A stretch of DNA of 33,131 nt from Phycisphaeraceae bacterium (lineage in GTDB: Bacteria > Planctomycetota > Phycisphaerae > Phycisphaerales > Zrk34), in the NCBI GenBank assembly GCA_028282685.1, contig JANQHK010000060.1, positions 1-33,131 on the forward strand, read 5' to 3'. Under the pieces are notes generated by a model. That model saw only the letters and a list, made by a program, of their open reading frames with translations. It made no database searches and was not told where the DNA came from. Positions 2,097 to 33,131 of this stretch are shown here, in pieces. Numbering within the stretch: the first letter of the stretch is position 1; each line of letters starts with the position of its first letter. The position numbers were made by a program, and so were the translations under genes.

Positions 2097-2112
2097 CCGC
2101 CCGAAAGGGCGG
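2097..2112 (+). promoter_or_regulatory. GNRA-capped hairpin in the creD-like gene leader
   Basis: CCGCCC (2097-2102) and GGGCGG (2107-2112) form a perfect 6-bp stem closed by a GAAA tetraloop, about 20 nt upstream of the Shine-Dalgarno AAAGGGG (about 2133-2139). There is no U-tract, so it is not a typical terminator. It may stabilise the 5' end of the mRNA or influence translation. Confidence 0.4.
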
Positions 2113-2145
2113 TGGGCTCTCCTCGTGCAGAGAAAGGGGTACGAC

Positions 2146-3372: not shown

Positions 3373-3407
3373 TGAAACGACACCGCCCCTGCGGTATGCT
3401 GTGCGGC

Positions 3408-3926: not shown

Positions 3927-3945
3927 CCGCGTTCTCAAAACGCGG
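3927..3945 (+). terminator. Hairpin directly after pyrE (attenuator or weak terminator)
   Basis: CCGCGTT (3927-3933) and AACGCGG (3939-3945) form a perfect 7-bp stem with a 5-nt loop, starting at the base after the pyrE TAA. Only a poor T-run (CTCGCTTT) follows. The next gene starts 9 nt after the stem and lacks a Shine-Dalgarno. The hairpin could therefore terminate partly, protect the pyrE mRNA end, or limit translation of the downstream gene. Confidence 0.5.
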
Positions 3946-3953
3946 CTCGCTTT

Positions 3954-10368: not shown

Positions 10369-10688
10369 GGCTTTTTTGGCCGTTTTGTGAACAATGGGCT
10401 TGGCCGAACCGTCTATCTATCAGGTAAGAAGGACCACAGGTGTATGGGGATCGTTGCCTGCGGCACGATCGGTATTAACGGCTATGATAGAACACGCCCC
10501 CAGGCGGTCGGATACGGTCCGGTCGGGCCGTGATGGAGAGCGCCATGTCTTGTTTTTCATCGAAGGCACCTGCACATAAGCGATTTATCAGTATGGGATT
10601 ACAGAAAACATTCTTGTGGGGTGTGCCTCGGTTGGCGTTGATTGCGGTCCCGACCGGCCGGGGCGGGTATCATGCCTGCAGGAATACG
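10369..10688. other. Intergenic region upstream of the large cluster
   Basis: This 320-bp spacer contains no convincing gene. It probably holds the promoter of the 10689-32969 cluster. Candidate -10 hexamers are TATGAT (10483-10488) and TATCAT (10668-10673), but neither has a well-placed -35. A hairpin ACGGTCC/GGGCCGT with a 4-nt loop lies at 10514-10531 without a U-tract. No strong terminator for the upstream DUF58 gene was found. Confidence 0.45.
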
Positions 10689-11777: not shown

Positions 11778-11834
11778 CCGGTGTTGGTTTCGTGCCGATG
11801 CCTTTCCATCCTTTTCATGTCTCGGAGAAGTCTG

Positions 11835-12908
<1,074 letters not shown>

Positions 12909-12921
12909 GGCAAGCCGATCG

Positions 12922-13848: not shown

Positions 13849-13859
13849 TGGCATTCCCA

Positions 13860-13927
13860 CCTCGCCCCCATGTGGGGGAGAGGTCGCCCGCCGAAGCGAA
13901 GCGGAGACGGGCGGGTGAGGGGGTAGA
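13860..13927 (+). repeat. Palindromic GC-rich repeat element, copy 1 (long form)
   Basis: The element holds a hairpin CCTC-G-CCCCC/GGGGG-A-GAGG at 13860-13883, then CGCCCG (13885-13890) pairing with CGGGCG (13908-13913), then GGGTGAGGGGGTAGA (13913-13927). The segments TGTGGGGGAGAGGT (13871-13884) and GGGTGAGGGGGTAGA recur in inverted orientation at 33102-33131, where a single T replaces the 28-bp middle part found here. It looks like a dispersed intergenic repeat unit (REP- or MITE-like) rather than a terminator, as no U-tract follows. Confidence 0.7.
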
Positions 13928-14039
13928 TTGAAAGCGCACGGAATTGTCAAAAAAGTATGCAGATGGAGAAGTATCGATCCAACCCGAATCGACGAAACGC
14001 GCTCGAACGCTGCGTAAGGAATCACCCATTAGCGATCAA

Positions 14040-14062
14040 CCCTCTCCCTGGGAGGGAGAGGG
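14040..14062. repeat. Perfect 10-bp palindrome upstream of the BatA-type gene
   Basis: CCCTCTCCCT (14040-14049) and AGGGAGAGGG (14053-14062) form a perfect 10-bp stem with a 3-nt loop. It lies 31 bp before the ATG of the BatA-type gene, outside any coding region. Its CCCTCCC-like composition and association with the element at 13860-13927 match the pair of palindromes at 33039-33059 and 33102-33131. As RNA it would be a very stable hairpin between the DUF58 and BatA-type genes. Confidence 0.7.
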
Positions 14063-14093
14063 GGCCGCGGAGACGACACGAAACGATTAAACC

Positions 14094-16361: not shown

Positions 16362-19300
16362 TGCGAGACCGCTGGCTTCTCATCGCGTGGATTGGCGTGC
16401 TTTTGTTGCCGCTGACGCACGCCGGGTCCCAGGTCATCATTCGGGGCGGTAAAAGGCCCGTGATCTTGCCGCAGCGGGAGCAGTCGGAATCCACCGTCGA
16501 AGGGGAAGACGACGAATCGTTCACCGCCCACCGTTTCGATGTCAACGCCGATGCGGAAGTGCTGATGACGCGCGCACGCGATTCCTTCCGGAATGATCAG
16601 GCGCGCGAGGCCTTGTTGATGTGCCAGCGCGTGATGGACAAATACGGCCGGTCGCTCACCACAACGGACGATCGCCTGTACATGCCGGCGTCGCGGGCGG
16701 TCGAGCGTTTGATCCTCGAACAATCCGAAGAGGTATTGAAACTCTACCGTCTGAATGTCGACACGACGGCGCGGGCGCTGCTGGACGAGCCCGTCGATCG
16801 CAGTCGCAATCCGGCGCAGTTGCAGCAGATCAACGAACGGTACTTCCTTTCTTCCCTGGGCGATGAGGCGGTGTATCGTCTGGGATGTCTGCGACTGGAT
16901 CAGGGTCGATACCGCGCTGCCGCCAAGCTGTTCCGGCGCGTGCTGGAACATCCGGATTTGTCGCCGCGCGCCCCCGCGGGGGCATCGGCCGTGGACCGTC
17001 GGGAGTTGCAATGGCGACTGGCCTTGTGCGTGGCGCGCGTGGGCAATATGGACGAAGCCGCAAGCCGGCTCGCCGAACTGCGACGCCGCGCTGCTACGGA
17101 CGGCCGCGGACCGCTGATCTCCGGGTTGCTTGAGCAGCGTCGTCGGCGACTGGTCGTCGATGCCGAGCCCGACCGCTGGCCTCATTCGCAGGCCGCGATT
17201 CAGGGCGTGGGTGTGATGGCCGGATTGGGTGAGAGCGGCCACAAGCAATCCGGCGAAGGTTGGGCGGTGCTGTGGGATCGGAAGTACTCGATGCGACTTC
17301 CCAATTACACGCAACCGACTCGAACCTCCCACTCCCAGAACATCAGCCGCCACCAGTTGATTCAATGGTGGCAATCCTCGGGATGGATTCCCGCTGTGCG
17401 GTTGATCTTTCATGGCGATCGGCTGTGGCTGCGCAGCCACGATGGCTTGCTTTGCCTGGACACCGCCACGGGTCGAACGGCCTGGCCCCAGCCCTACCGC
17501 CAACCCGGCGATGCGGTCAACGCGACCCTGCGTTTCTCGTATTACAGTTCGGGCATGAGAACCCTGCCCCTGCATCCCCAGGCGGTGTTCGCCTTCGCCG
17601 ACAGTGCGGTGCGATCGTTGAGCTGGATCGACGGGACGGTCTATTGCATCGAGGGCACACCGATGGTCCAGACCCCCGATGCCATGACCCGAAGCAGTTC
17701 GGACCGGTTGACCAATTACGGCCTGAGCCAGGCGTTGGCGGCGCTCGATGCCGAGACCGGCAAATTCAAATGGCGCACCTACCTGGGCACCGATACGAAG
17801 CACACCGGCCAACGCATCGGCGCTCGCGTTCTCAATGCCCCGGTGCGCGTGGCCGATCGATTGTTTGTCACGTTTTCGGAGCAGGGCCAACTGTTCGCCG
17901 CCTTGCTCGATCCTCAAACGGGCAAGCCCGTTGTCGATCCGATCTACCTGATTCGTCTTCCCACCGGGGACGCGAGCTGGTCGCCGCTGGGTGTGTTGGC
18001 GTGGGACGATCGGGTTTACCTGACGGACGGGCGGGGTGTGGTATTGTCGATCGACGTGGGCGCAGGCCGCGTCGAATGGGCCAGAATGTGGCCTCGGGAT
18101 TCCAGTTCCGCGAGACCGCAGATGACTCGGCAGCGCGGCCGATTCATCGTGCCGGGCGGTATGCAGGCGCTGGCCGAAGACTTGTCCCACATCGTCATGT
18201 TCCAGTTCGACGGCTACCTGGTGGTTTCCGATGCGCAGAACCATTCGATTTACCAGGTCGATATTTCCTCGGGGCGCTTGCGTCGCCGAACCGGCAACGA
18301 CAAGCCGTTGCGGATCGAAACCGAAGCGTTTCGCTATGCGCTCGGCGTTCACCAGGGAAAACTGATTCTGGCGGACAAGAAACGACTGACCGCCTACGAT
18401 CTCCGCGACGGCAACATCGCGTGGCGCGCCAATGTGACTCATGCCACCGGTCGCGCTGCCCTGACTGAAAATGCGATCTACGTTCCGGCCGACGATCACA
18501 TCTTGCGCATCGATCCGCACAACGGTCTGCGCCAGTCGCGCAATCCTCTGCTGGTTCCACTCGACCAGCCGCTGGGTAACCTGTACAGCGACGGCCGACG
18601 CCTGTTTTCCGCGGGTATGGATCGCGTGATTGCGCTGGTCGATACCGACGTCTACGAGCAGGCGTTGACGGCGCGCTTTATGGACGGCGACGACTCCGCC
18701 CTGCTCGAGCGCGCCGTCCTGCGCCGCCAGCAGGGCCGCCTCGACGATGCCATGGCCGACCTGCGCCTGGCGCAGCGGCGCATCGATGATGACGACGCCG
18801 AGCGCGTGAAGCGGGAAATGGTGGAGTTGTTAATGTCTGGACTGGATCGGCTTTCCCTTGACGATGCCCTGGCGCGACTCGATGAAGCGGAACAAATCGC
18901 TCCTTCAACGGACTTGCGCATGCGCGTGCTCATGGCCGGCGCCAGACGCTTGATTGATGCCGATCGGCGACAGCAGGCCGCCGTCCTCTGCCTGAAAATC
19001 ATCCAGTTGGGCGGCTCGACGATGATCGACACCGACGATTCGCAGGGCCACTGGTCTGTCCGGGCCGACCAATGGGCGGCGGATCGCCTGCGCTGGCTCG
19101 GCAACGGCGTCGCCCCGGTCACCATCGATGGGTCTGCGCTGGACGTGCGCCAGGGACTCGATCGGGCGCTACGGGAAGAAGACCCCCAACGCCTGTACGA
19201 TCTGGCGCTGTTGCTCAGCGGCTCTCCCATGGGCAGCGAAGCGATGCAGGCCCTGTCCGGTTTGGTTCAGTCCGGTGCGTTGAATATCAAAGGCGCCCGT

Positions 19301-20926
19301 GATCGTTTCGAGTGGGCTGAGGCACTGTTACTGGAATTGACACGCGATAACCGATCCCGTGTTGCCGACGAAGCATTGGCCGAACTGGCCGACCTCTACC
19401 ACCGCGTCGGCTGGCACACACGAGCTTCGCAATGCTGGCGGCAGCTTTTGGCATTGACTGACGAACGGATGCTGGAGCGCGACGGCCTGCCTCTGCCCGC
19501 ACGGGAACTCGCCCGGCAGCGCCTCGAAGAGACGGGCCTGCTCGAAGCCCCCGTGACGCACGCATTGCGGCCTCCGCTGAAGCGATGGTGGAAAATGTCC
19601 AGCGCGGGGAATCAGCCCCTGCTCATGCCCGGCTGGACATTCGGGGAAGATCCCTTTTTCGACAACCATCTGCTGACCTATTCCGCCGGTTTCAATCGGT
19701 TGGAACTGCATCGGCTGGCGCGCAAGCGGCAGCGCGTGTGGTCGCTGGGCCTGCCCGATACCTTGCGCCTTTATCCGCGCCGCTCCAGCTCCTTCCAGAT
19801 GCTGTCCGGCGGGACGGACGGCCACATGCTGGTGATCCGTCGCGGCTCGTGGTTGCTGGGCGTGGGCGCAATCAGCGGACAACTGCGCTGGCAATCGCAG
19901 GTCGATCGCCTGGCCGACGAGCGGGTGCCCACCCCGCCCGACCTGGCCCAGCGGCTGAATTATCCCTTTGCCGTGGGGCATGGCATCGTTGCCGAGACCG
20001 TGGACGATGAGGATGGGCTCAGCGATCTGCTGCGCGTGGCCGAATCGCTGACCGGGCGGGAGCTGTGGCGCCGCGCGTTGCCCGACGGGTTGGTTCAGCA
20101 TCTGCACATCGCCAGTCGTTTCGTTGTGGCATTTCACAACAACGCGACGCATGTCTCCCTGTTCGACCGTCGCTCGGGTCGGCGACTGGGCGGCTATTCC
20201 CTCGAACAGTCGATGTTGAACAACCAGGCGTTGCTCACCGACGAATACATGGTCTACCACGTCGGTGGGAATCTGGTTTGCCGTCGGTTGCAGACCGGCC
20301 AAATTCTCTGGACGATCGCGGGCAGCGGCATACGACGGTTGCAGGCGCTGGGCGATCGACACATCGCCGTGGTCTGGTCGTCGAACATGCAGTTCGAGCG
20401 GATCGATCCCGAAACCGGAATCAAAGATAACTGGAAGGCCTTTCCCGATATGGTCGGAAAATTCGTTTACGACGTTGCGGTCAGCCCCGACGATCGGCAC
20501 ATCTATACCTTCGGACGTTTTCTGGACAGCACCTGGGCACTGGTGCGCACGAACGCTTACAACGGCAAGCGCGATCTGAGCATCCCGACCGGACGTTACG
20601 CCAACTACCGAATCGCCCTGCGCGATCTGGCTCGATGCGGACCGGTGCTGCCTCTGGTTCTTCGGGAAAACGATTCCAGCAATTACCGCCTGCGCTTCTA
20701 CGATCGGGACCGCGGCGGTGCACCTCTCAAAGACATCACGCTGCCATTCCAGGACGACGGCAGCGATACCATTGCCGCCCTGAGCAGTCCACCGCTGATC
20801 CGCAACGGCAAAATACTCATCCACGCCGGCAACGAATTGCATCTGTTCGGCCCCGCCGAGGAACCTCAACCCGAACCGTCCATTGAAAAACCGTCAACCC
20901 CACCGCAGAGGACCGACGCCCCGTGA
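16358..20926 (+). CDS. Giant secreted protein with two PQQ-like beta-propellers and TPR-like helices
   Basis: The 1522-residue protein starts at ATG 16358 (second ATG 16361), behind a strong GGAGGAGG and overlapping the previous stop by 4 bp. A signal peptide covers about residues 1-24. Regions in order: helical, TPR-like (about 40-270); first propeller (about 340-760) with blades ending in the tryptophan-docking pattern LDTATGRTAW, LDAETGKFKW, YDLRDGNIAW; helical, TPR-like (about 770-1075); second propeller (about 1090-1500) with SLTGRELW and RLQTGQILW. The tail is proline-rich. Such PQQ/BamB-like propellers may bind PQQ in dehydrogenases or serve only for protein contacts. No dehydrogenase active-site residues or cysteine pair were recognised, so a scaffold role is favoured. 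GTGA couples it to the next gene. Confidence 0.85.
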   Translation: MMRDRWLLIAWIGVLLLPLTHAGSQVIIRGGKRPVILPQREQSESTVEGEDDESFTAHRFDVNADAEVLMTRARDSFRNDQAREALLMCQRVMDKYGRSLTTTDDRLYMPASRAVERLILEQSEEVLKLYRLNVDTTARALLDEPVDRSRNPAQLQQINERYFLSSLGDEAVYRLGCLRLDQGRYRAAAKLFRRVLEHPDLSPRAPAGASAVDRRELQWRLALCVARVGNMDEAASRLAELRRRAATDGRGPLISGLLEQRRRRLVVDAEPDRWPHSQAAIQGVGVMAGLGESGHKQSGEGWAVLWDRKYSMRLPNYTQPTRTSHSQNISRHQLIQWWQSSGWIPAVRLIFHGDRLWLRSHDGLLCLDTATGRTAWPQPYRQPGDAVNATLRFSYYSSGMRTLPLHPQAVFAFADSAVRSLSWIDGTVYCIEGTPMVQTPDAMTRSSSDRLTNYGLSQALAALDAETGKFKWRTYLGTDTKHTGQRIGARVLNAPVRVADRLFVTFSEQGQLFAALLDPQTGKPVVDPIYLIRLPTGDASWSPLGVLAWDDRVYLTDGRGVVLSIDVGAGRVEWARMWPRDSSSARPQMTRQRGRFIVPGGMQALAEDLSHIVMFQFDGYLVVSDAQNHSIYQVDISSGRLRRRTGNDKPLRIETEAFRYALGVHQGKLILADKKRLTAYDLRDGNIAWRANVTHATGRAALTENAIYVPADDHILRIDPHNGLRQSRNPLLVPLDQPLGNLYSDGRRLFSAGMDRVIALVDTDVYEQALTARFMDGDDSALLERAVLRRQQGRLDDAMADLRLAQRRIDDDDAERVKREMVELLMSGLDRLSLDDALARLDEAEQIAPSTDLRMRVLMAGARRLIDADRRQQAAVLCLKIIQLGGSTMIDTDDSQGHWSVRADQWAADRLRWLGNGVAPVTIDGSALDVRQGLDRALREEDPQRLYDLALLLSGSPMGSEAMQALSGLVQSGALNIKGARDRFEWAEALLLELTRDNRSRVADEALAELADLYHRVGWHTRASQCWRQLLALTDERMLERDGLPLPARELARQRLEETGLLEAPVTHALRPPLKRWWKMSSAGNQPLLMPGWTFGEDPFFDNHLLTYSAGFNRLELHRLARKRQRVWSLGLPDTLRLYPRRSSSFQMLSGGTDGHMLVIRRGSWLLGVGAISGQLRWQSQVDRLADERVPTPPDLAQRLNYPFAVGHGIVAETVDDEDGLSDLLRVAESLTGRELWRRALPDGLVQHLHIASRFVVAFHNNATHVSLFDRRSGRRLGGYSLEQSMLNNQALLTDEYMVYHVGGNLVCRRLQTGQILWTIAGSGIRRLQALGDRHIAVVWSSNMQFERIDPETGIKDNWKAFPDMVGKFVYDVAVSPDDRHIYTFGRFLDSTWALVRTNAYNGKRDLSIPTGRYANYRIALRDLARCGPVLPLVLRENDSSNYRLRFYDRDRGGAPLKDITLPFQDDGSDTIAALSSPPLIRNGKILIHAGNELHLFGPAEEPQPEPSIEKPSTPPQRTDAP

Positions 20927-23634
20927 GTGACTTCTGGCTGAAACTGCTGGGTTACGAGGTGGCCGATCTTCCGGAGTCGGCGACGACGGAGTTTGTGCTG
21001 ACCTATGCGCCGCAGTCCTGGCGTGTGTTTGTCCTGATCGCGCTGGTGGTCATGCTGGTCTGGGGCATCATTCATCTCTATCGCCGCGAGAACGACACCT
21101 GCCCGCGCTGGGTCCGCCATGCCCTGGCCGGAAATCGCGGGCTGGTGCTGATCCTGTTGATCTTCGTTTTGTTGGGGCCGTCGCTGGTGGTTTACACGCA
21201 ACGCATGATTGAGCCGTACGTCGTGGTGTTGATCGATCGGTCGCTGTCGATGTCGCTGGTCGACCGTAACGAAGAGGCGAGCGCCCCCGATCTCCCCGCG
21301 CCCCGCAATGACAAAAACAGCCGCCTTGCCGAAGCGCAAGTGCTTTTGGAACAGAACGATCACCGGACGCTCAATCAATTGCGCCGCTACAACCACCTCA
21401 AGGTGATCGGGTTCGACGGGGGAACCGAGGATCTCAATACCTTCGCCCTGCAACGTCCGCGGGAAGACGAGGAACAAATCCGCGCCGCGCGCGCCGCCCG
21501 TTCCCTGCCGTTTGACCTGGTCTGGTGGCTGGGAGCGCCGTGTCTGGGATTGTGCGTGTTGGCGGTATGGTTGCTGGGAGATCGTCCGCTCACCGCCGGA
21601 GGCGCCGTGGCCGGTATCGTGGGTTTGTGCCTCGTGATGGGATTCGTCATCGTCCACCTGACGGCGCCGGATGCGCAGGCCGATCGCGCCCCGCCCGGCG
21701 AAACCTCCCCCGAAGTGCTGGAAGCGCAACGGCCGATTTCGCTATCGCCGTTGACGCAGGCGGGTTCGACCGTATTGACGACCGATCTGGCCGGCGCGAT
21801 CCGTGAAGCGCTGCAAATTCAATCGCGCAATCCGCTGGCGGGCATTGTCATGCTCACCGACGGGCAGGCCACGGCGGGCGACGATCCTCTCGCCGCCGCG
21901 GAGCAGGCCGGTCAGCTCGGCGTCCCGATCTTTCCCGTGGGCATCGGCGATCCCTCCGAGCCGCGCAATCTGCGCGTCGCCGAGTTGTGGACGCCCGAAA
22001 GCGTCTTCACCGACAACCCCCTGCAAATCCAGGCGCGATTGCACGTCACCGGGTGCGAAGGCCAAACCGTTCGGCTGGAGCTGGTCGAACGAACGGTCCG
22101 CGATGACGGTTCGGCCGGACCGGAAACCGTCATTGCTTCGCGCGATGTCACTGTCCCGGCAAACCGGACCACGATCGAAGGGGAATCGGCCGCGTTCCAG
22201 CATGCCCCCCGGGAGGCGGGCAATTACTTGTATACCGTGCGCCTGGCCGAACTGCCCAACGAGCTGGTCACCGCCGACAACGCCCGCTCCAACCGCGTGC
22301 AGGTGCTCTCCGACATGGCGCGCGTTCTGTTGATCTCCGGCGGGCCGACCTGGGAATACCGCAACCTCGCCCGACTGCTCGTCCGCGACAAAACCACCAA
22401 CGTCTCCTGTTGGTTGCAGTCGATGGACGAAGACATGCGCCAGGAAGGCAACACCGTCATAGCCGAGCTGCCCCGTGAACCCAGCGAGCTGTACAAGTAC
22501 GACCTGATCATCATGCTGGATCCCGATCCGCGCGACTTTGACCAGAATTGGATGACCAACCTTGAGCGTTTCCTGGATGAGCACGCGGGGGGCCTTCTGT
22601 ACATGGCCGGCCCCAAACATACCGCCCGCTACATGACCCACTTCAGTACGCGCGGCATCGCCGACCTGCTGCCGATTCGTCTGGGACAACTCAGTGCCGT
22701 CGATGTCGAATCGCTGGAAACCACGCACACCCATCCCTGGCCGCTCCGATTGACGGGGCTCGGCCAGGACCACCCGATCCTGCGTCTGGCCGATGAGCCG
22801 CAGGCCAACCCGTCGCTCTGGCAATCCATGCCCGGCGTGTACTGGTCGTTCCCGACGCGCGGCGCCAAGCCGGCCTCGAAAGTCATCATCGAACATTCCG
22901 ATCCGCGCCTGCGACGCAGCGAAGGCGCCCGGCCGTTGATGGTGAGCGGACAATTCGGCCCGGGTCGCACGCTCTACATCGGCTTCTCGGGAACGTGGCG
23001 CTGGCGACGGGTCGGTGAAATCTATTTCGATCGTTTCTGGATCAAGTCCGTGCGCTACCTGATCGAAGGTCGCCTGCTGGGCGGACGCAAGCGCGGACGC
23101 ATCGAAACCAATCGCGATGTGTATGATGTGGGCGAACGCATCGTCATCCGCGCCCGGCTTTACGATGCGCAATTCAAACCGCTGATCGAGCCGCAGATCG
23201 AAGCCGTGGTGCGCGAGCCCGGCGGGGCCACACGCCCGTTGACGCTCAAACCCGTGCCCAATCGCCACGGCTACTACCGGGGCGCTTACGGGGCGGGGGG
23301 GGCCGGGAGCCATGAAATCGCCCTGACGCTCGCGGGCAGCGGCGAAAAACCCGTCCGCGTGGCTCGGCAGGTCACCGTCCAGGTTCCCCAGGCCGAATAC
23401 GCCGACCCCCGACTCGATCTGGCGGCACTCACCGGCCTGGCGCAGGCCAGCCAGGGTCGTGTGCTTCGGCCCGACCAGTTCAACCAATTGCCCCAGTTCA
23501 TCGCCGACAAAACCGAAATCCTCATCGAGCCGGACAAGCCCGCCGGTTTGTGGGATACCGATCGACTGCTAATACTCCTGTTGATGTTGCTCACCCTCGA
23601 ATGGGGCGTGCGCAAGCGCTACAAGCTGATGTAA
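20923..23634 (+). CDS. VWA-domain membrane protein with internal membrane hairpin
   Basis: The 903-residue protein starts with GTG overlapping the previous stop (GTGA). Two membrane segments (about 34-51 and 72-91) precede a VWA domain whose MIDAS is DRSLS (105-109). The domain is interrupted by two extra hydrophobic helices (about 198-219 and 224-246) before it resumes with TTDLAGAIREAL and IVMLTDGQAT (TDGQ 312-315). Beyond it lie beta-sandwich regions and a class I amidotransferase-like segment, RVLLISGGPTWEYRNLARLL (467-486). The latter lacks a recognisable catalytic Cys, so it is probably non-enzymatic. A final hydrophobic segment ends in RKRYKLM. The overall plan resembles the BatA-type gene at 14094 and the two may form a hetero-complex. 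The even number of inserted helices would keep both VWA halves on the same side of the membrane. Confidence 0.85.
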   Translation: MSDFWLKLLGYEVADLPESATTEFVLTYAPQSWRVFVLIALVVMLVWGIIHLYRRENDTCPRWVRHALAGNRGLVLILLIFVLLGPSLVVYTQRMIEPYVVVLIDRSLSMSLVDRNEEASAPDLPAPRNDKNSRLAEAQVLLEQNDHRTLNQLRRYNHLKVIGFDGGTEDLNTFALQRPREDEEQIRAARAARSLPFDLVWWLGAPCLGLCVLAVWLLGDRPLTAGGAVAGIVGLCLVMGFVIVHLTAPDAQADRAPPGETSPEVLEAQRPISLSPLTQAGSTVLTTDLAGAIREALQIQSRNPLAGIVMLTDGQATAGDDPLAAAEQAGQLGVPIFPVGIGDPSEPRNLRVAELWTPESVFTDNPLQIQARLHVTGCEGQTVRLELVERTVRDDGSAGPETVIASRDVTVPANRTTIEGESAAFQHAPREAGNYLYTVRLAELPNELVTADNARSNRVQVLSDMARVLLISGGPTWEYRNLARLLVRDKTTNVSCWLQSMDEDMRQEGNTVIAELPREPSELYKYDLIIMLDPDPRDFDQNWMTNLERFLDEHAGGLLYMAGPKHTARYMTHFSTRGIADLLPIRLGQLSAVDVESLETTHTHPWPLRLTGLGQDHPILRLADEPQANPSLWQSMPGVYWSFPTRGAKPASKVIIEHSDPRLRRSEGARPLMVSGQFGPGRTLYIGFSGTWRWRRVGEIYFDRFWIKSVRYLIEGRLLGGRKRGRIETNRDVYDVGERIVIRARLYDAQFKPLIEPQIEAVVREPGGATRPLTLKPVPNRHGYYRGAYGAGGAGSHEIALTLAGSGEKPVRVARQVTVQVPQAEYADPRLDLAALTGLAQASQGRVLRPDQFNQLPQFIADKTEILIEPDKPAGLWDTDRLLILLLMLLTLEWGVRKRYKLM

Positions 23635-23655
23635 ACGTTTAACGAAAATGAACCG

Positions 23656-25815
23656 ATGACCGTACTGCCCCGCCAAATCCTCCAGCCCATCGAAAGCAAG
23701 CTGCAACGCCTGCGCCGTGAAGCGCGCCTCTGGCACCTCGCCAACGGATCGGCCTGGTTGGCGGTGGTGACGTTGGCCGTGATGTTGTTCGACTTGGGCG
23801 CCGATCGCCTGTTTCGACTGGATCTGCCGCAGCGCGTGCTGATGCTGCTGTTGATGTGCGGTGTGGTGAGCGCCGTCGCCTGGTACAAACTCATCCGCCC
23901 GCTCGGCGCGCGCCTGACCGACGATGCTCTCTGCCTGCAGGTGGAAAAGCAGAACGCCAATCTCAATCAATCCGTGATCAGCGCGCTGCAACTGGCTCGT
24001 CTGGATGACGCCGAATCGCTCGGGCTGTCTCCCCAACTGTTGCAGAGTGCTGTGGCGAGCGGTGTGGCGGCGGCCGAGTCCGTGGATTTTGCCCAGGTCA
24101 TCGATCGTCGGGCGCGTACCCGGCGCCTGGGCGTAACCGCCGCCGTCATCATCACGGTGTTCGGCCTGGTCACCTTTTTCCCTGAAACCGCCGAACTCTA
24201 TTTGGCGCGCAACTTCGCCTTTGCCGCCGAACAGTGGCCTCAACAGACGCAACTGGTCATCTTGGATATTGAAAATGGCGAACTGGTGGCGCCGCGCGGC
24301 GACGATGCCGTGTTCCGCGTTCGTGCCGAGGGCGTCGTGCCCTCTTCCGTCCTCATGGAGATCAATCCCACCGGCGCCCGGCGATACACGCGCAAGATGA
24401 CCGGCGCCGCACCCGGTCAGTTCGAGGTGCTGATCCGGAACGTTCTGGAGCCGATGAAAATCCGCGCGCGCGGCGGCGATGATCGCACCGAATGGGTGCC
24501 CGTGCGGCTGGTCGAGCGACCCGGTGTCGAGCAATTGACCCTCACCGTCCTGCCCCCGGCGTACACCGGCCTGCCCAGGCACGATCTCCCACCCGCCCAG
24601 GGCACCTACGACGTTCTGGCCGGGTCCACGTTGCTTATCACCGGCCAGGCCTCGCCCGATTCCCGCCGTGCCACGTTGCTCGATGAAAATCGCCCTCTCG
24701 CTGCGATCGCACTGGATGCGGAGCAATTCCAGTTCACCGTCGAACCCGATCAACTGCACAGCGGTTCGTACGGCATCGAGCTGATCGATACCAACGATCT
24801 GAAATCGCGTCGGCCCGTACGATTCAGCGTGCGCGTTCTGTCCGATACCCCTCCCGCGGTCCGCGCCCGGCTGGAGGGAATCAGCGATCTGATCACGCAG
24901 CGCGCCACCGTTCCCATCGTTTATCGTTTTACCGACGACCACGCCGTCACCGCCGCCGAACTGTCGTACCGTGATCCGAACATCGAGATCGCTGCGAATC
25001 AACCCATCCCGCAAATAAAACAACCCATCACCGCAATGGAAAGCGAGTTGGGTACGCCCGAGATCGGCCCCGCCGTACTCCGTTGGGAAATCGAGCCGCT
25101 TCAATTGCCGCCGGGAACGCATATCACCTTCCAGGTTCTCGCCACCGATAACAACGCCTTCGACGGACCGGGCATCGGGCGCAGCGGACAATTCGCATTG
25201 AAAGTCGTCAGCGATGAAGAGCTGCGCGGCGAGTTGCTTCGACGTGAACAGGAACAGCGCATGGAGTTCGAGCGGCTGTTGTCGGACCAGAAGGCATTGA
25301 TCGTCTCCGTGCGGGCGTTTGCAGCCGGCATCGGCAATACCGCCTCTCTTTCCGACGCGCAGCACAATCAGCTCAAGGAATTGGAAAAGCAACAGCGACT
25401 CGCCGCCGGGCGCTGCCGCGCCATCGCCGATCATTTCCGCCAGACCCTGGCCGAGATCGACAACAACAAGCTCGAAGAAATCGGTGGCCCGATGCACCGC
25501 CGCATGGCCGGTCACATCATCGAGCCGCTGGAAGCATTGGCCGATCGCCGGGTTCCCGAGGCCGCCGACCATCTCGATGCGGCCTCGCGCCCCTCCTTCG
25601 AGGCCGGGCAACGACAAATCGAAACGGAGCGTGCCCTGCAAGTCCAGCGCCAGATCGTGGACACCATGACCGACATCCTGACCAACATGGTCAAGGTCGA
25701 GGGCTACCACGAGGCGATCAATCTGATGCGCCGGATTCTTAAAGAGCAGAGCGAAGTGAACGAGAAGACCCGCAAAGCGCTAGAAGAACAGATCGAGGAT
25801 ATTTTCGACGATTGA
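23656..25815 (+). CDS. DUF4175-like membrane protein with coiled-coil C-terminus
   Basis: The 719-residue protein begins with an amphipathic helix (about 1-28). Membrane segments follow at about 31-50 and 60-80, then a soluble helical part ending in ALQLARLDDAESLGLS, and a third segment at about 157-175. A long extracytoplasmic beta-rich region (about 190-525) contains repeated sandwich-like motifs such as LTLTVLPPAYTGLP and VRARLEGISDLI. A helical, coiled-coil end follows (about 530-719), rich in Glu, Gln and Arg and closing with EQIEDIFDD. This layout and the PPAYTG motif match large DUF4175-type proteins that sit in MoxR/VWA clusters. Function unknown. The ribosome site before ATG 23656 is weak, and the 21-bp gap suggests read-through translation. 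Confidence 0.72.
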   Translation: MTVLPRQILQPIESKLQRLRREARLWHLANGSAWLAVVTLAVMLFDLGADRLFRLDLPQRVLMLLLMCGVVSAVAWYKLIRPLGARLTDDALCLQVEKQNANLNQSVISALQLARLDDAESLGLSPQLLQSAVASGVAAAESVDFAQVIDRRARTRRLGVTAAVIITVFGLVTFFPETAELYLARNFAFAAEQWPQQTQLVILDIENGELVAPRGDDAVFRVRAEGVVPSSVLMEINPTGARRYTRKMTGAAPGQFEVLIRNVLEPMKIRARGGDDRTEWVPVRLVERPGVEQLTLTVLPPAYTGLPRHDLPPAQGTYDVLAGSTLLITGQASPDSRRATLLDENRPLAAIALDAEQFQFTVEPDQLHSGSYGIELIDTNDLKSRRPVRFSVRVLSDTPPAVRARLEGISDLITQRATVPIVYRFTDDHAVTAAELSYRDPNIEIAANQPIPQIKQPITAMESELGTPEIGPAVLRWEIEPLQLPPGTHITFQVLATDNNAFDGPGIGRSGQFALKVVSDEELRGELLRREQEQRMEFERLLSDQKALIVSVRAFAAGIGNTASLSDAQHNQLKELEKQQRLAAGRCRAIADHFRQTLAEIDNNKLEEIGGPMHRRMAGHIIEPLEALADRRVPEAADHLDAASRPSFEAGQRQIETERALQVQRQIVDTMTDILTNMVKVEGYHEAINLMRRILKEQSEVNEKTRKALEEQIEDIFDD

Positions 25816-25890: not shown

Positions 25891-27717
25891 GTGCAAACCA
25901 TCCGATGCAATCTGGCCGTTGCGATGTGGCTCCTGGCCCTCGCTGCGCAGGCGTCGGTCCAGGCCGAATCCCCGCAGGCCACCCCATTGGGCGTGCGGCA
26001 GGACAGCGTCAAGCAGATGGTCGAGGAGATGAAACAAAAATTCGTCCAGCTCTACCAGGCCTTACGCCTCGCCGAGCCGGATCAGGCCGCACGCCTTGAA
26101 CTGGCGTTGGAGCAGATCGGCGATGCCCAGATTGTCGAGCGCATGCAGCAAATCACCGCCCAGCTCGACGCCGAGCGCCTGGATGCCGCGGCACAGGAGC
26201 AGGCCGAACTGGTCGTCCAGTTACGACAGATCATCCGCCTGCTCACCGATGAAGACGAGCTCGACAAGCTGCTCAGGGAAATCCGCGAACTGGAGAAATG
26301 GAAACGGCAGATCAACCGGATCATCCGGGAAGAAACCGACCTGCGCAATCAATCCGACCGATTGACCGACAAGGACAAAACACTTGCGGGGCTGGATCAA
26401 AAGCTGGCCGTTCTGAAGGATCTGATTCGCCAGCAAGATCGGGTCACCCAAAGCACCGCGCAGGCCGCGGCGCAGGGCGCGCACAAGTTGTCGCGCATCG
26501 CCGATGAGCAGCGCCGCGTGCGCCAGGCCACCGAAGCGCTGACGAAATCCCTCCAGCCGCCCGGCCCGGACGGTCAATCACCCGATCCCTCCGCGCCGCA
26601 GGAGGACCAGGGTCAACAAGGCCGGGCGAACCAATCGTTGCAGAAGGCATCGCAGGAGCAACGCAGCGCCGAGAGCGACATGGCCGAGGGCAAAGGCAAT
26701 GCCGCACAATCCCACGCCGGCAATGCGCTTAAAAAACTGAAGCAGGCCTTGAAAGAATTGGAAGCCGAGCGCCAACGGATTGCCGAACTGCCCCCGGAAC
26801 ATTTTGAAGAACTGGCAAAGCAACAGGACCAGACCGGCGATGAAACCGCCAAGCTCGCCCAGGAGATGGCCAAGGGCGGCCAGCAAGGTGAACAAGGCGA
26901 ACAGGGCCAGCAGGACGTCGCCTCCGCCCGGCAGAGCATGGAAAAAGCATCGGGTCAATTGCGAGGCCGCAGTCCCGACGGTGCCAAGCAGAACCAGCAG
27001 CAAGCGATCAATCAACTTCAGCAGGCGCGCGAAAAGATCGAGGAAAAGCTCGCCCAGTTGCGCGAAGAGATGCAGCAGGAAATGCTGGCTGCGCTCGAGC
27101 AGCGCTTCGCGGAAATGCTCCGCCGTCAGCGTGAGGTCACCCTCGCCACCGCCGACATGCACCACGTCCGCACCGAAGCTTCCGATACTCCCAAGCCGCT
27201 GACCCGCGCCCAGCGCTTGCTCTGCGCCGGTCTGGCCGAGGAAGAACAGGTGCTTGCTTCGCTGGCCGAGAAGGCGCTGCAGATCATCATCGAGGACGGA
27301 ACCACCGTGATTTTCCCCACGATCGTCGAGCAGCTCCAGCAGGATCTGCAAACGGCGTCCGGATTCCTCGCCAGGGAAAAGACCGGGCCTTACACCCGGC
27401 AATTGCAACGGCAGATCGAGCAGATGCTCGAAGATCTCATCGAGGCCCTAAAGCAGGCCCAGCAACAACAGCAGCAGCAAACCCAACAGCAACCACAGCA
27501 ACAGCAGGAACAACCGCCCCTGCCCCTGGTGCCCGAGTCCGCCGAGCTCAAGCTGCTCCGCGCCGCTCAGATTCGCGTGAACCGCAGAACCGCCGGCTTC
27601 GATCGTTCGCGCCCGCAAGGCGAACTGGACGACCTGATGATTCAGGAAGTTCAGCGCATCCGCGACCGACAGGAGCAGGTCCGCACCATGGCCGAAGACA
27701 TGTACGACCTGGAATAA
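25891..27717 (+). CDS. Secreted coiled-coil protein with poly-glutamine tract
   Basis: The 608-residue protein starts with GTG 25891, set by AGGAG 8 nt upstream. It has a signal peptide (about 1-25, ending SVQA/ES). Nearly the whole mature part is predicted by eye to be long alpha helix with heptad-like patterns rich in Gln, Glu, Lys and Ala, such as REIRELEKWKRQINRIIREE and LKKLKQALKELEAERQRI. Low-complexity linkers lie near 226-246 and 328-341. A Gln-rich tract (about 521-541, encoded at 27451-27513) precedes a proline-rich hinge and a conserved-looking C-terminal helix. No catalytic motif is seen. It probably acts as a periplasmic spacer or scaffold between the DUF4175-like membrane protein upstream and the TPR-like protein downstream, which is 13 bp away. 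Similar Gln-rich coiled-coil proteins occur after DUF4175 genes. Confidence 0.7.
   Translation: MQTIRCNLAVAMWLLALAAQASVQAESPQATPLGVRQDSVKQMVEEMKQKFVQLYQALRLAEPDQAARLELALEQIGDAQIVERMQQITAQLDAERLDAAAQEQAELVVQLRQIIRLLTDEDELDKLLREIRELEKWKRQINRIIREETDLRNQSDRLTDKDKTLAGLDQKLAVLKDLIRQQDRVTQSTAQAAAQGAHKLSRIADEQRRVRQATEALTKSLQPPGPDGQSPDPSAPQEDQGQQGRANQSLQKASQEQRSAESDMAEGKGNAAQSHAGNALKKLKQALKELEAERQRIAELPPEHFEELAKQQDQTGDETAKLAQEMAKGGQQGEQGEQGQQDVASARQSMEKASGQLRGRSPDGAKQNQQQAINQLQQAREKIEEKLAQLREEMQQEMLAALEQRFAEMLRRQREVTLATADMHHVRTEASDTPKPLTRAQRLLCAGLAEEEQVLASLAEKALQIIIEDGTTVIFPTIVEQLQQDLQTASGFLAREKTGPYTRQLQRQIEQMLEDLIEALKQAQQQQQQQTQQQPQQQQEQPPLPLVPESAELKLLRAAQIRVNRRTAGFDRSRPQGELDDLMIQEVQRIRDRQEQVRTMAEDMYDLE
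27451..27513 (+). repeat. Poly-Gln (CAG/CAA) codon tract
   Basis: About 16 of 21 codons are CAG or CAA, mixed irregularly, encoding the Gln-rich part of the coiled-coil protein (residues about 521-541). The mixture of the two codons argues against simple slippage of one triplet, but the tract could still vary in length between strains. Confidence 0.75.
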
Positions 27718-27730
27718 ACGGAGCCGCCCG

Positions 27731-28846
27731 ATGTCACGCCTGTTCCACATCGTTATTCCGGTGCTGATCGCCGCGGTCCCGGCCGCAGCCCAGTTGCCGC
27801 GTCTGCCTCAGCTCGAATCGTTCGATGTGATGAACCCGCCGCCGATACGCATGCCGCTACGACCGGTCGCACACACGCCGCCGGATCCCCACGCCGTGGT
27901 TCGGGGATTGATCCAGCACATCGAATCGGATACTGCCTTATCGGCAAAGACACGCAGCGAAGCCCTGGAACTGTTGCACTTGCCCGATGTGGCCAACCAG
28001 CCCCAGGCGGTAGCCAACGCGTTGACGCTGCTCGATACGAATTTTGACAAGGCGATGAAGGAACTGTCCATGGAGCGGGTGGACGCGGCGTTGCAGTCCC
28101 TGGCTAAAGCTCGTGCAACCGGAAATCCATACCTCGCGGCCCATGCCGATTTCTTCGCCGCGCGCGCTCACTTGCAGCGGGAGGATTACGAAGCGGCGCG
28201 GCCGCTTCTTGAAAAGGTCGTCGGCGAGCACCTGTCACAAACGCTCTACAGCGGCGAGGCGATGTTCATGCTCGGTGTCTGCCGCGCCGAGTTGATCGAG
28301 CGCGACCGGGCCGTTGCCACGCTCAACCTCTTTCTCGAACACTACCCGCAGGCGTCGGAGCGTATGGCGATCGGAGCGGCGCACCTGCTCGATGAACTTG
28401 CCGCCATGGCGGACGGCACCATCATCGATGTTTCGGATCGGATGGATTACTCCCGTCGTCGACTGCATTTGCAGCGCACGGCCCGGGTCACCCAGCGCGA
28501 GCAGAACCACATCGTTCGACTGCTCGACGATCTGATCGAGGAGGCCGAGCAAAAGGAAAACTCCGGCGGGGGCGGCGGCCAAGGCAGCGGCCAGGGCTCG
28601 GGCATGCCGCAGGGCTCGGGCCAGCCATCCAACCCGGCCCAGGAATCCACGGCGCCCGTCGGGCAGGCGCAGATCGGCGAACTGCACCGCGTACATCGCG
28701 GCAGCGCCGAAGAGGAATGGGGCCAAGCGCGGAAGAAGGAAATCGACGCCGTCCTCAGTTCGCCCGACAGCAAGATACCCAACCATTACCGCGAGTTGAT
28801 CGAACAGTACTACCGTTCCATGCAGAAACAGGGAAGCACACCGTGA
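27731..28846 (+). CDS. Secreted TPR-like helical repeat protein
   Basis: The 371-residue protein starts at ATG 27731 with CGGAG about 9 nt upstream. The signal peptide (about 1-20) ends PAAA/QL. A proline-rich stretch (about 24-55) precedes a helical part (about 56-275) with TPR-like pairs, for example ADFFAARAHLQREDYEAARP and EAMFMLGVCRAELIERDRAV, the latter followed by LNLFLEHYP. A Gly/Ser/Gln-rich linker (about 277-303) joins a short conserved C-terminal helix containing EEEWGQARKKEID and IPNHYRELIEQYYRSMQ. The last motif is typical of the C-termini of secreted proteins in these clusters. It probably docks other envelope components. Its stop overlaps the GTG start of the NPCBM gene by 4 bp (GTGA), so the two are likely made in fixed ratio. 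Confidence 0.75.
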   Translation: MSRLFHIVIPVLIAAVPAAAQLPRLPQLESFDVMNPPPIRMPLRPVAHTPPDPHAVVRGLIQHIESDTALSAKTRSEALELLHLPDVANQPQAVANALTLLDTNFDKAMKELSMERVDAALQSLAKARATGNPYLAAHADFFAARAHLQREDYEAARPLLEKVVGEHLSQTLYSGEAMFMLGVCRAELIERDRAVATLNLFLEHYPQASERMAIGAAHLLDELAAMADGTIIDVSDRMDYSRRRLHLQRTARVTQREQNHIVRLLDDLIEEAEQKENSGGGGGQGSGQGSGMPQGSGQPSNPAQESTAPVGQAQIGELHRVHRGSAEEEWGQARKKEIDAVLSSPDSKIPNHYRELIEQYYRSMQKQGSTP

Positions 28847-30075
28847 ATCCAGTGTCGCCCATTCGCATGCTCTTCGCCTTGTCTGTCGCCTGGGTTGGGT
28901 GCGCCGGCGCGCTCGGGGATACGATCGCCCTGCTGGATGGCAAGACCGTTACGAATCAGTCCATTGCCGCCATTGCTGACGGCGAGGTTACGTACGGCGA
29001 CCAGACCTTCGATCTGATGAACATGAGGCGCGTTGAGCGCAAGACGAAATCCCTGCCGACGGATGCACAGCGTGGCGTCATCATGCTACACGATGGCAGC
29101 TCCGCACGCGTGAAACAACTCAGCGTCAATGAAGAAGTCTGCCGGATCATCCTTGTCGATGATGCGGAGATGGATTTTCCCCTGTCTTCGCTGCGCCTGG
29201 TGATGTTCAAAGCCGTGGAGAGCCGACCGCGCGGGTTCGTTTGGCCGAAAGAAGTGGCCGACGCCTTGGCCCGGCCGCGCACCGGCGACGACCTGCTGAT
29301 GGTGTACAAGCAGGAGAAGGTCACATCGATTCCCGGCGTGCTCAAGGCCGTCGACGATACGCATGTCACCTTCATCTACAAAGGCAAAGATCGCACAGTG
29401 GCCCGGGAGAAGGTACTTGCCGTGATTCTCGCCGCTTCCGCGCAGCCGCCTGATACCGCCGGCATGGGCCTGATCCATACCGCCCAGGGCCTGTCGCTCT
29501 GGGGCAAAGCATTACGCCTTGAAACCGATCGTTTGCACTTGCAACGATCGGATGGACAAACGTTGTGGCTGCCCTGGTCAAAAGTCCGGCGTATCGACAT
29601 CCGCTCCGATCGCATGGCCTGGCTTTCCGAACTGGAGCCGGTGGAGGTGGATGATACGCCGATGTTCACGCTGGGCGGGTGGGAGCGCGATCGCTCCTGG
29701 CTGGGCCGCCCCATCACACTGAAAGGAAAAACCTACGAGCGCGGCCTGGGTGTGCATGCGCCGTGCCGACTGGTCTACGAGCCGGCCGGCCGTTACCAGA
29801 CGTTTGCCGCGGTGATCGGTATTGACGACGAAACCCATCAGCAAGGCGGCGATTGTATATTTGTCGTGATCGGCGATGGCAGGATGATCTACAGGCAGCG
29901 CGTGACCAGCCGGGACAAGCCACGCCCCTTGCGTCTGGATATCACCGGTGTCCAGCGATTGGAGCTGCGTGTCGAGCCCGGAGAAAACCTGGACATCGGC
30001 GACCATGCCGACTGGGCCGATGCGCGATTGATCCGCGATACGCCCCGACGCACGCTGAACCGGAAGAATCGATGA
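28843..30075 (+). CDS. Secreted NPCBM-domain protein with four small beta-barrel-like repeats
   Basis: The 410-residue protein starts with GTG 28843, which overlaps the previous stop and has GGGAAG upstream. A signal peptide covers about 1-25 (ALG/D). Four segments of 40-55 residues follow (about 26-67, 78-125, 147-198, 208-255). They share a pattern of a hydrophobic strand, a DG turn, further strands and a closing LxxVxxI-type strand, as in Sm- or SH3-like barrels. The C-terminal NPCBM-like domain (about 260-397) contains YERGLGVHAPCRLVYE and later RLELRVEPGENLDIGDHADW, the usual NPCBM fingerprint. NPCBM domains bind carbohydrate and are usually attached to glycosidases. No glycosidase domain is present here, so the protein may bind a glycan on the envelope. 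The ATGA overlap couples it to the protease gene. Confidence 0.8.
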   Translation: MNPVSPIRMLFALSVAWVGCAGALGDTIALLDGKTVTNQSIAAIADGEVTYGDQTFDLMNMRRVERKTKSLPTDAQRGVIMLHDGSSARVKQLSVNEEVCRIILVDDAEMDFPLSSLRLVMFKAVESRPRGFVWPKEVADALARPRTGDDLLMVYKQEKVTSIPGVLKAVDDTHVTFIYKGKDRTVAREKVLAVILAASAQPPDTAGMGLIHTAQGLSLWGKALRLETDRLHLQRSDGQTLWLPWSKVRRIDIRSDRMAWLSELEPVEVDDTPMFTLGGWERDRSWLGRPITLKGKTYERGLGVHAPCRLVYEPAGRYQTFAAVIGIDDETHQQGGDCIFVVIGDGRMIYRQRVTSRDKPRPLRLDITGVQRLELRVEPGENLDIGDHADWADARLIRDTPRRTLNRKNR

Positions 30076-32969
30076 TGTGCTACGCACGTTTACATCTCGC
30101 CCTCACCGGGCTGCTGCTCGCCGCAACCGGCGCGATGGCCGTGGCCGAAGCGCTGGCGGATGAAAAGCTCGATCCCTCCGTGCCGCAGTTCGAGCAGGCG
30201 CGCATCGAGGCGATCGAATCGGTCCGCCCGACGGTCGTCAGCATCTTTGGCAAGGTGCGCCAGGGCGGGGGCAGCGGCGTGTTGATTTCGCCCGATGGAT
30301 TGGTTCTGACCAACTTCCACGTTGTTGCCGGGGCAGGGGGCGAGCAGGGCTGGGCCGGGCTGTCCGATGGCGTGCTCTATCCGTGGAAGCTGATCGGGCT
30401 GGATCCCGGCGGGGACCTGGCACTGATCCAACTGACCAACGATCCGCCCGACAAGCCCTTCCCCTACGCGGTGCTCGGTTCGGCGGCTTCGCTGAAACAG
30501 GGCGACTGGGTGATGGCGATGGGCAATCCCTTCGCACTCAATGAAGACCTGCGCCCGACCGTCACCATGGGCATCGTCTCCGGTTTGCAGCGGTACCAGG
30601 GCGGAACCGGGCCGCGGAAGACCATGCTCGTCTACGGCAACTGCATCCAGGTGGACACCTCGATCAACCCGGGCAACTCCGGCGGGCCGTTGTTCGACAT
30701 GGCCGGTCGAGTGGTCGGCATCAACGGCCGGGCGAGTTTTGAAGCGCGCGGTCGCGTGAACGTCGGCCTGGGTTACGCCATCAGCGCCGAGCAGTGCCTG
30801 TACTTCCTGCCGGAGTTGATGGCCGCGAAGGTCGCGCAGCACGGTTGGTTGGACGAAGCCACCTTCGGCGATCGCGGCGGACGCGTCGTCTGCGACAAAA
30901 TTGATTACGATTCGCCGATCGGCCAACTCGGCCTGCGACTCGGCGATGAACTGCTCCAGTTCAACGGCCGGCCGATCCAGACCGCCAACCGGTTCACCAA
31001 TCAACTGTCCATGCTCCCGGCGCATTGGCCCGTGACATTGCGGGTGCGCACCGGCAGCGACAAGCCGCGCACCCTGCGCATGCGACTGGGCGCGCTGGAC
31101 TACGGCCCGATGCCCGACAAGCCGACCATGCCCGATGGCGACAAACCCGAAAAGAGCAAAAAGCAACTGCTGCCGCGGCGCGGCCCGCTGTCGAAAACCA
31201 AACCCGGCGGGGTCATCGACGAACAAGTCAACCGCGCCATGGCCGAACTCATTCTGCGCAAGTACCGCCAGACCCTCGGTGGCGATGCGGCGCTGAGTCG
31301 AGTCAAAGCGATTCGTGTGAACCAGTCCTATCGGGACTCCGTCGGTGCTGCACCGCGGGAGTTTACCGCCGATTCGCTTCTCGCCCTCGATGGGCGATTT
31401 CGTCATGAGATAAAGCGGAAACGGCGTACCGGCCATGATCCCGACACGGAGTCGAATCGCCACGTCACGCAAATCTTGTGGAACGGCGAGAGAATGATCA
31501 GGGCCGGGGGCGATGAGGTCAACGAGAAATCGATGGAGCGCGCTCGCAAGAGCATGTACATGCCGCGCCGTACGGCCTTGATGGCGCTGTATCGGCCCGA
31601 TGGGATTGACCATTTCAAGCAAGTTCAACTCGAAGGCGCCGACCAGGCCCAGGGGCGCATTGCCGCGTTGATTGCGGCAAACGATGGACACGGCAACCGC
31701 TTCCGCTTTTACTTTGAACTCTACCGGGCCGATGTTGGATTTCGCGTGCGATTACTGAAGCACGGAGTATCACGCCTTGGCGGAAAGTGGCAATATTTTC
31801 TCGTCGGCCGGCCGCAACCGATCGGCCATGGCATCCGGTACGCACCCACGATCGCCGAAGGAGGCAGTGCGCAAGATCCCATTGCGAGGTATTCCCCAGC
31901 GCAAGCGGTGGCTCTGACCGAATTGCCCGATGGGATATTCGAGAACCCCGATGTTCCCTTGCCGGCGATCCATGCCCGCGCCGAAATATCGAATGGAACC
32001 GAAACGCCCAAAGACAATGTCCATCCGTACGACCCATGCCCCAACGTGTTTTCACCGGCTATCGCGTATGCCCAGCGGCGCTGCGTGAAAATCTACGGAG
32101 CAGGAATCGGACGTGAAAAGGGCTACGCCAGCGGAATCATTGTTTCCAACGACGGCCTGATCCTCACCGCGCAGGGCGTGTACCTGATCGGACGGAGGAT
32201 CAATGTGGCTCTGCCCGACGGTTCGATCCATCGCGCTCACGTGGTGCGCACCAACGACGACATCCAGGCGGCTTTGCTGCAAATCGACGCCGAGACGCCG
32301 GACTACTTCGATGTGCCTGCGGAGTCAGCGGCTCTGCCGGGCGATTGGGTGTTGGCCCTGGCGAACCCGTTCAACGTGGCCGATTTCGAAGAGCCGCTCT
32401 CGCTGAACCTCGGCGTGGTGTCGATGCGTGCGGCGTTGGATACCCGCCGGCGCGCGCAGGATTTCGATGTGCGGGGCGAAGTGTTACTGATCGATGCGAT
32501 TGTTTCCAATCCCGGTTCGGCCGGCGGGGCGGTGGTCGGGCTCGATGGCCGACTGGTCGGCATGGTCGGCAAGTTGCTGGAAAGCCAGTCCACCAACACG
32601 CGCCTGAATTACGCCATCCCCGCCGATCTGCTGCGGCGCTTTCTGGACGGCGAGCCGGTGAACGATGCGGCCGCTGCGGATGTTGATCCCACCGATACCG
32701 TGCCCGGTTACGTGGGGCTGCGCCTGTTCACGCTGCCCGGTCGCCGCGCCCCGGCGTACATCGATCGGGTGACCCCCGGCTCCCCGGCGGCAAAAGCCGG
32801 ATTGCGAAAAGACGATCTCATTCTCGTGATCGACGGTCGGATGGTGCGCAACATCAAGGATTACCAGGAGATCGAAAAAACGCTGTATGCCGACCGAACG
32901 TACCGGTTCATGATCAAGCGCGGGGAAGAAATCATCGAGAAGTCGCTCACCCCCGCGCGCAAGCCATGA
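30072..32969 (+). CDS. Double HtrA-type protein: active trypsin-like protease-PDZ plus pseudoprotease-PDZ
   Basis: The 965-residue protein starts at ATG 30072 (second ATG 30075), with GGAAG upstream and a 4-bp overlap with the previous stop. A signal peptide (about 1-29) is followed by a trypsin-like domain with His83 (TNFHVV), Asp115 (GGDLALIQ) and Ser203 (NPGNSGGP), then a PDZ domain (about 265-340). A linker (340-380) leads to a beta-rich domain (about 385-600), which resembles LolA-like lipoprotein-sorting folds (YRQTLGGDAALSRVKAIRV). A second trypsin-like domain (about 650-860) follows in which the three catalytic positions are Gly702, Gln732 and Ala817, hence inactive, and a second PDZ (about 875-955). 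It probably acts in periplasmic protein quality control for the cluster. It is about twice the usual DegP length. The gene is last in the co-directional run. Confidence 0.9.
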   Translation: MMCYARLHLALTGLLLAATGAMAVAEALADEKLDPSVPQFEQARIEAIESVRPTVVSIFGKVRQGGGSGVLISPDGLVLTNFHVVAGAGGEQGWAGLSDGVLYPWKLIGLDPGGDLALIQLTNDPPDKPFPYAVLGSAASLKQGDWVMAMGNPFALNEDLRPTVTMGIVSGLQRYQGGTGPRKTMLVYGNCIQVDTSINPGNSGGPLFDMAGRVVGINGRASFEARGRVNVGLGYAISAEQCLYFLPELMAAKVAQHGWLDEATFGDRGGRVVCDKIDYDSPIGQLGLRLGDELLQFNGRPIQTANRFTNQLSMLPAHWPVTLRVRTGSDKPRTLRMRLGALDYGPMPDKPTMPDGDKPEKSKKQLLPRRGPLSKTKPGGVIDEQVNRAMAELILRKYRQTLGGDAALSRVKAIRVNQSYRDSVGAAPREFTADSLLALDGRFRHEIKRKRRTGHDPDTESNRHVTQILWNGERMIRAGGDEVNEKSMERARKSMYMPRRTALMALYRPDGIDHFKQVQLEGADQAQGRIAALIAANDGHGNRFRFYFELYRADVGFRVRLLKHGVSRLGGKWQYFLVGRPQPIGHGIRYAPTIAEGGSAQDPIARYSPAQAVALTELPDGIFENPDVPLPAIHARAEISNGTETPKDNVHPYDPCPNVFSPAIAYAQRRCVKIYGAGIGREKGYASGIIVSNDGLILTAQGVYLIGRRINVALPDGSIHRAHVVRTNDDIQAALLQIDAETPDYFDVPAESAALPGDWVLALANPFNVADFEEPLSLNLGVVSMRAALDTRRRAQDFDVRGEVLLIDAIVSNPGSAGGAVVGLDGRLVGMVGKLLESQSTNTRLNYAIPADLLRRFLDGEPVNDAAAADVDPTDTVPGYVGLRLFTLPGRRAPAYIDRVTPGSPAAKAGLRKDDLILVIDGRMVRNIKDYQEIEKTLYADRTYRFMIKRGEEIIEKSLTPARKP

Positions 32970-33038: not shown

Positions 33039-33059
33039 CCCCTCCCTTCAAGGGAGGGG
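33039..33059. repeat. CCCCTCCC palindrome downstream of the cluster
   Basis: CCCCTCCC (33039-33046) pairs with GGGAGGGG (33052-33059) across TTCAA, an 8-bp stem that can extend by two T-A pairs. GGGTGAGG (33068-33075) can pair with CCTCACCC (33109-33116), so this hairpin lies beside a larger stem-loop of the same repeat element. It resembles the palindrome at 14040-14062. Confidence 0.65.
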
Positions 33060-33101
33060 CAAGGGGAGGGTGAGGCCTGGAAAGTCGAATCGTTTCGGGA
33101 C

Positions 33102-33131
33102 TCTACCCCCTCACCCAACCTCTCCCCCACA
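33102..33131 (-). repeat. Palindromic GC-rich repeat element, copy 2 (short form, cut by window end)
   Basis: Read on the minus strand, TGTGGGGGAGAGGT is followed after one T by GGGTGAGGGGGTAGA. These two segments are identical to 13871-13884 and 13913-13927 of copy 1. The 28 bases between them in copy 1 are replaced by a single T here. The element reaches the last base of the window, so its outer boundary is unknown. Confidence 0.7.

Follow-up and report, generated by a model that had tools for sequence, protein, structure and literature searches.

One active and two triad-less HtrA paralogues, most likely an obligate periplasmic set, in Planctomycetota

Why should one exported protein carry an intact HtrA protease and a second HtrA module that lacks the catalytic residues? 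The question is raised by an open reading frame of 965 amino acids at 30072–32969 (+) of the window, the whole stretch of 33,131 nucleotides analysed here, from a genome whose nearest named relatives are Phycisphaeraceae. The product begins with a signal-like hydrophobic stretch (amino acids 1–30; 30072–30161, +). This is followed by M1, an active HtrA protease with a PDZ domain (amino acids 31–345; 30162–31106, +), by a Pro/Lys-rich linker with a LolA-like domain at approximately amino acids 380–630 (31107–32006, +), and by M2, an HtrA pseudoprotease with a PDZ domain (amino acids 646–965; 32007–32969, +). Pfam matched Trypsin_2 twice, with values of 6.6e-49 for the whole 965-residue protein and 3.2e-15 for the second module alone, and placed a PDZ domain after each protease module; the order of trypsin-like protease domain and PDZ domain in M1 was recognised by both Pfam and NCBIfam. 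Together with the predicted structure of the region in between, these matches bear out the architecture proposed in the preliminary description, namely two protease-PDZ modules around a LolA-like region.

To compare the catalytic triads, we jointly aligned 334 domains from M1, M2 and a third HtrA paralogue, M3, which also carries a PDZ domain and follows M2 in the gene order M1-M2-M3 of most loci. In the 965-residue protein, residues 83, 115 and 203 of the first module are His, Asp and Ser, and the triad positions of the second module are occupied by Gly702, Gln732 and Ala817; all six residues had been named correctly beforehand as one intact and one lost triad. The His/Asp/Ser triad of M1 was intact in 106 of 106 domains. 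In regards to M2, none of the 117 distinct orthologues had an intact triad and none kept two triad residues together; single residues were retained as His in 2, Asp in 17 and Ser in 12 of them. In M3, Tyr replaces Ser in all 111 domains and the Asp is absent, and an earlier alignment had His at the His position in two M3 rows. The assignment of Gln732 to the column of the catalytic Asp is not forced, because 17 of the 117 orthologues have Asp there. A misread alignment as the source of the lost triad was considered and rejected, and no alignment restored His/Asp/Ser in the second module. Neither of the two outcomes named beforehand as refuting, homologues with an intact second triad or an alignment that brings it back, was thus seen. 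Activity of M2, and of M3, through other residues was also considered. Ser816 adjoins the lost nucleophile and the Tyr of M3 is invariant; however, Ser at position 816 is not a conserved feature of M2, and the loss extends to the His and Asp positions. A substitute nucleophile was rejected on these grounds, and we regard it as very improbable.

The M2 profile matched DegQ and DegP at about 1e-50 over the protease and PDZ domains, with DegQ at 3.4e-53, which is well outside what chance would give. A full-length structural model (pLDDT 81, pTM 0.79) was examined for both modules. M1 of this model superimposed on DegP and DegQ with Z scores of about 29, its structural matches reaching about 29–31, and M2 (model residues 620–832) matched DegS with a Z score of about 25 and an rmsd of 2.2–2.6 over 187–198 residues, so that M2 is predicted to keep the HtrA protease fold. 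A tree calculated without the triad columns separated M1, M2 and M3 completely, each being monophyletic with a support of 0.995–1.0, and the triad losses are therefore old. Across 40 close pairs, the dN/dS of M2 was mostly 0.03–0.08, rising to 0.23 where dS was low; that of M1 was mostly 0.02–0.03, somewhat below M2, and that of M3 was similar to M2. These values point to purifying selection on M1, M2 and M3 alike. The loss of all three catalytic residues would also be seen in a decaying duplicate, and this reading of the second module is refuted by the 117 orthologues, the monophyly, the low dN/dS and the predicted retention of the fold; we give it practically no credence. The triad loss in M2 is thus old and maintained, in agreement with the earlier proposal that the second module is a pseudoprotease with its fold kept and not a product of simple decay.

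The middle region gave no match to Pfam or NCBIfam models, and PF03548 (LolA) matched neither this domain nor any other part of the genome. A sequence search of the PDB returned only a sub-threshold match to MucB (E 0.06). When the region was modelled alone (pLDDT 80), nearly all of the leading structural matches were of the LolA/LolB type. The best was 3bk5, an outer-membrane lipoprotein-sorting-like protein (Z 15.9, 209 residues, 3.6 Å), followed by 3buu (Z 13.7), LolA/LolB proteins (Z 9–14) and RseB (Z about 6). The middle domain is accordingly predicted to have the LolA fold, and the original LolA-like call holds at the level of predicted structure. In regards to the origin of the protein, M1 (protease, PDZ and C-terminal domain) and M2 (protease and PDZ) are two adjacent genes in most genomes, and the gene in the window is a fusion of the two. 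The preliminary description had spoken of a fusion with a LolA-like insert. The fusion stands, as two neighbouring genes are merged; the insert does not, because the LolA-like part belongs to the product of the upstream gene M1, as its C-terminal domain, and this gene is separate from M2 in most relatives. Several close relatives have a tail of only about 130 amino acids in place of the LolA-like domain, so that the LolA-like tail is not essential to the M1-M2-M3 unit.

M3, the second dead HtrA, lies outside the contig of the window and appears to belong to the unit. The genome is a 2.9-Mb assembly in 157 contigs, and the contig of the window ends 162 bases past the fused gene, inside a dispersed repeat. 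In the same genome, the M3 gene starts right at the edge of another contig, C66. The contig break was probably caused by the repeat, since one contig ends in CCCCTCACCCAACCTCTCCCC and the other starts at the M3 gene, and for the same reason the three-gene set is most likely complete in this genome. The C-rich repeat CCCCTCACCCAACCTCTCCCC occupies 33039–33131 and has 10 copies in the genome at no more than 2 mismatches, 6 of which are exact. As a separate observation, M3 of some families (loci L043–L052) is about 670 amino acids long, and a weak second match suggests an extra PDZ domain.

We searched for M2 loci in a scan of 84,980 species with two short motifs, both of which lie outside the triad positions. 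All 80 named loci carried the label Planctomycetota or that of a group within it. A clear M2 orthologue (≥125 bits, the next score being 102) was present in 66 of 392 sampled Planctomycetota genomes. Orthologue thresholds were placed at gaps in the score lists, and many of the sources were draft metagenome assemblies. M2 is patchy within the order of the window, in which only 9 of 400 genomes have it. M1 was found in all 66 genomes with M2, and a clear M3 in 65; in the one remaining genome the M3 match, located beside M2, is weaker. The probability of the M2-M3 overlap was about 3e-72 by simple counting without correction for ancestry. One genome in a single contig keeps all three HtrA genes although they are scattered at 4.06, 3.73 and 6.61 Mb.

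Gene fusion is a classical sign of association. M1 and M2 are fused in the window and in 10 further distinct loci, and on the M2 tree this requires the state to have changed at least 8 times; the M1 rows were aligned with the fused rows alone. M2 and M3 are fused in three loci of one clade. These loci (L124, L136 and L140) lie outside the usual cluster, with M1 elsewhere in two of the genomes and not found in the third. The repeated M1-M2 fusion and the near-perfect co-retention suggest a close association of M1, M2 and M3. The same evidence weighs on the possibility that M2 and M3 are free-standing binders of peptides, metals or envelope components, which serve the same gene cluster and never touch M1. 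Most genomes encode M2 and M3 as separate proteins that are exported, and a precedent exists in the protease domain of MamO, which binds metal apart from the activation of MamE (PMC4794232); the fusions and the three-way co-retention nevertheless point to a closer link, and we consider free-standing binders rather unlikely.

In most cases the three HtrA genes close a MoxR-DUF58-BatA/vWA cluster, which in the window lies upstream on the same strand. The start codon of the fused HtrA gene overlaps the stop codon of its conserved immediate neighbour, an NPCBM-domain gene (28717–30075, +), in the sequence ATGA. Conserved neighbours further upstream encode a TPR protein (27731–28846, +), a coiled-coil-like Gln-rich protein (25891–27717, +), a 719-residue protein without a Pfam match (23656–25815, +) and a vWA-like protein of 903 residues (20923–23634, +). 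Beyond these lie a PQQ beta-propeller/TPR gene (16280–20926, +), variably present in the cluster, and the genes for a BatA/vWA/CARDB protein (14094–16361, +), a DUF58 protein (12874–13848, +) and a MoxR AAA+ ATPase (11781–12908, +). The order of the NPCBM, TPR, coiled-coil-like, 719-residue, vWA, BatA, DUF58, MoxR and squalene-cyclase-like genes is kept in distant relatives. Within 10530–25815, the order MoxR-DUF58-BatA-PQQ/TPR-vWA is kept over distant Planctomycetota, with the squalene-cyclase-like repeat gene in front. With MoxR, DUF58 and BatA-type vWA genes together, the cluster qualifies as a Bat-type gene cluster. A CreD-like membrane protein gene and a lysylphosphatidylglycerol-synthase-like transmembrane gene are found upstream of the cluster at 2047–4892.

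This gene content also brings to mind a MoxR-vWA conflict (defence) system, for which inactive trypsin effectors have been described (PMC7159879); the inactive trypsin domains would then be dominant-negative or peptide-binding effectors. The ternary systems of this type have VMAP, iSTAND, an FtsH pair or a beta-propeller as third component, besides hypervariable effectors. The MoxR AAA+, vWA and PQQ beta-propeller proteins of the cluster fit such a system. However, the HtrA proteins look exported, the gene content is stable across the phylum with no hypervariable effectors seen in the cluster, the DUF58 and BatA genes are Bat-like, and PADLOC matched only the active protease domain. A conflict system is hence improbable.

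The retention of M1 together with two dead copies suggests a protease assembly in which the inactive subunits have a job. We lean towards the reading that the three exported, Planctomycetota-specific HtrA paralogues form one periplasmic unit in which M1 works in assembly with M2 and M3; the three most likely make up an obligate set in the periplasm, with one active HtrA and two pseudoproteases. The simplest form of this assembly would be an HtrA oligomer of mixed composition in which active sites are few; the set is possibly a hetero-oligomer. M2 and M3, together with their PDZ domains, would bind substrates or signals and set the activity of M1; alternatively, M1 would simply be the enzyme and M2 and M3 its regulators. 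As in the preliminary description, the second module may be regulatory or substrate-binding, and the LolA-like domain could present a lipid or lipoprotein. The LolA-like domain may bind a hydrophobic ligand or an envelope partner, and the M1-M2-M3 unit could have a role in envelope stress. A more specific version, a mixed, asymmetric M1:M2:M3 particle in which all working sites are of one kind, with a LolA-like ligand-binding domain and coupled to the MoxR-vWA membrane cluster, is put forward tentatively, and we hold it to be no better than a possibility.

It is rare to find a pseudoprotease whose active partner is conserved throughout a phylum. In Planctomycetota, an active HtrA and two dead ones are retained jointly, also when they are unlinked, and are fused in varying pairs. 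The effect of a dead protease subunit on an active one can therefore be studied with recombinant proteins and in knockouts of culturable planctomycetes, and the set is a first point of access to a large, conserved envelope gene cluster of this phylum. If the mixed-particle reading is true, HtrA would have dedicated dead subunits across the phylum. We found no paper on the planctomycetal HtrA set or its cluster among the open-access papers searched, and a prior description may exist.

DegP, DegQ and DegS are active homo-oligomers. They have the protease and PDZ fold in common with M1 and M2; the planctomycetal set differs in that the triad is missing from M2 and M3 and a LolA-like domain is attached to M1. 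LolA/LolB and RseB/MucB share the predicted fold of the middle domain; however, the identity is about 10%, Pfam LolA does not match, and the planctomycetal domain is fused to an HtrA protease. In regards to the gene cluster, Bat (Bacteroides aerotolerance) clusters likewise place MoxR, DUF58, BatA-type vWA and TPR genes next to one another, and the planctomycetal cluster differs in that it also contains PQQ/TPR and NPCBM genes and three HtrA paralogues. The known function of Bat proteins is little guide to this cluster, because Leptospira biflexa showed no oxidative-stress phenotype when its bat genes were deleted (PMC3557215). Plant Deg5 and Deg8 are two HtrA paralogues with synergistic roles, and recombinant Deg5 did not degrade beta-casein (PMC3640471). 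Deg5 still has its catalytic Ser, and homo-oligomers were seen in the solved structures, whereas the planctomycetal dead HtrAs have lost the triad itself.

The closest precedent for a set of active and dead HtrAs is MamE/MamO of magnetotactic bacteria, in which a single gene cluster encodes an active HtrA together with a trypsin-like paralogue that is catalytically dead (PMC4794232). As with M1 and M2/M3, a dead paralogue is kept for non-catalytic work beside an active HtrA. The activation of MamE needs the TauE domain of MamO, the MamO protease domain alone being insufficient, and no physical contact between MamE and MamO was detected (PMC4794232). The MamE/MamO mechanism is consequently not transferable, because the transporter domain is required and contact was not detected there. 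The 965-residue protein scored 64 with the NCBIfam MamO model, against a cut-off of 800, and neither the protein nor its cluster contains a TauE domain or magnetosome genes. In MamO, Thr occupies the position of the nucleophile, and the protein carries a TauE transporter domain and acts in magnetite formation; the planctomycetal set, by comparison, comprises a pair of dead paralogues, has PDZ domains and a Bat-like cluster, and shows M1-M2 fusion and a LolA-like tail on M1.
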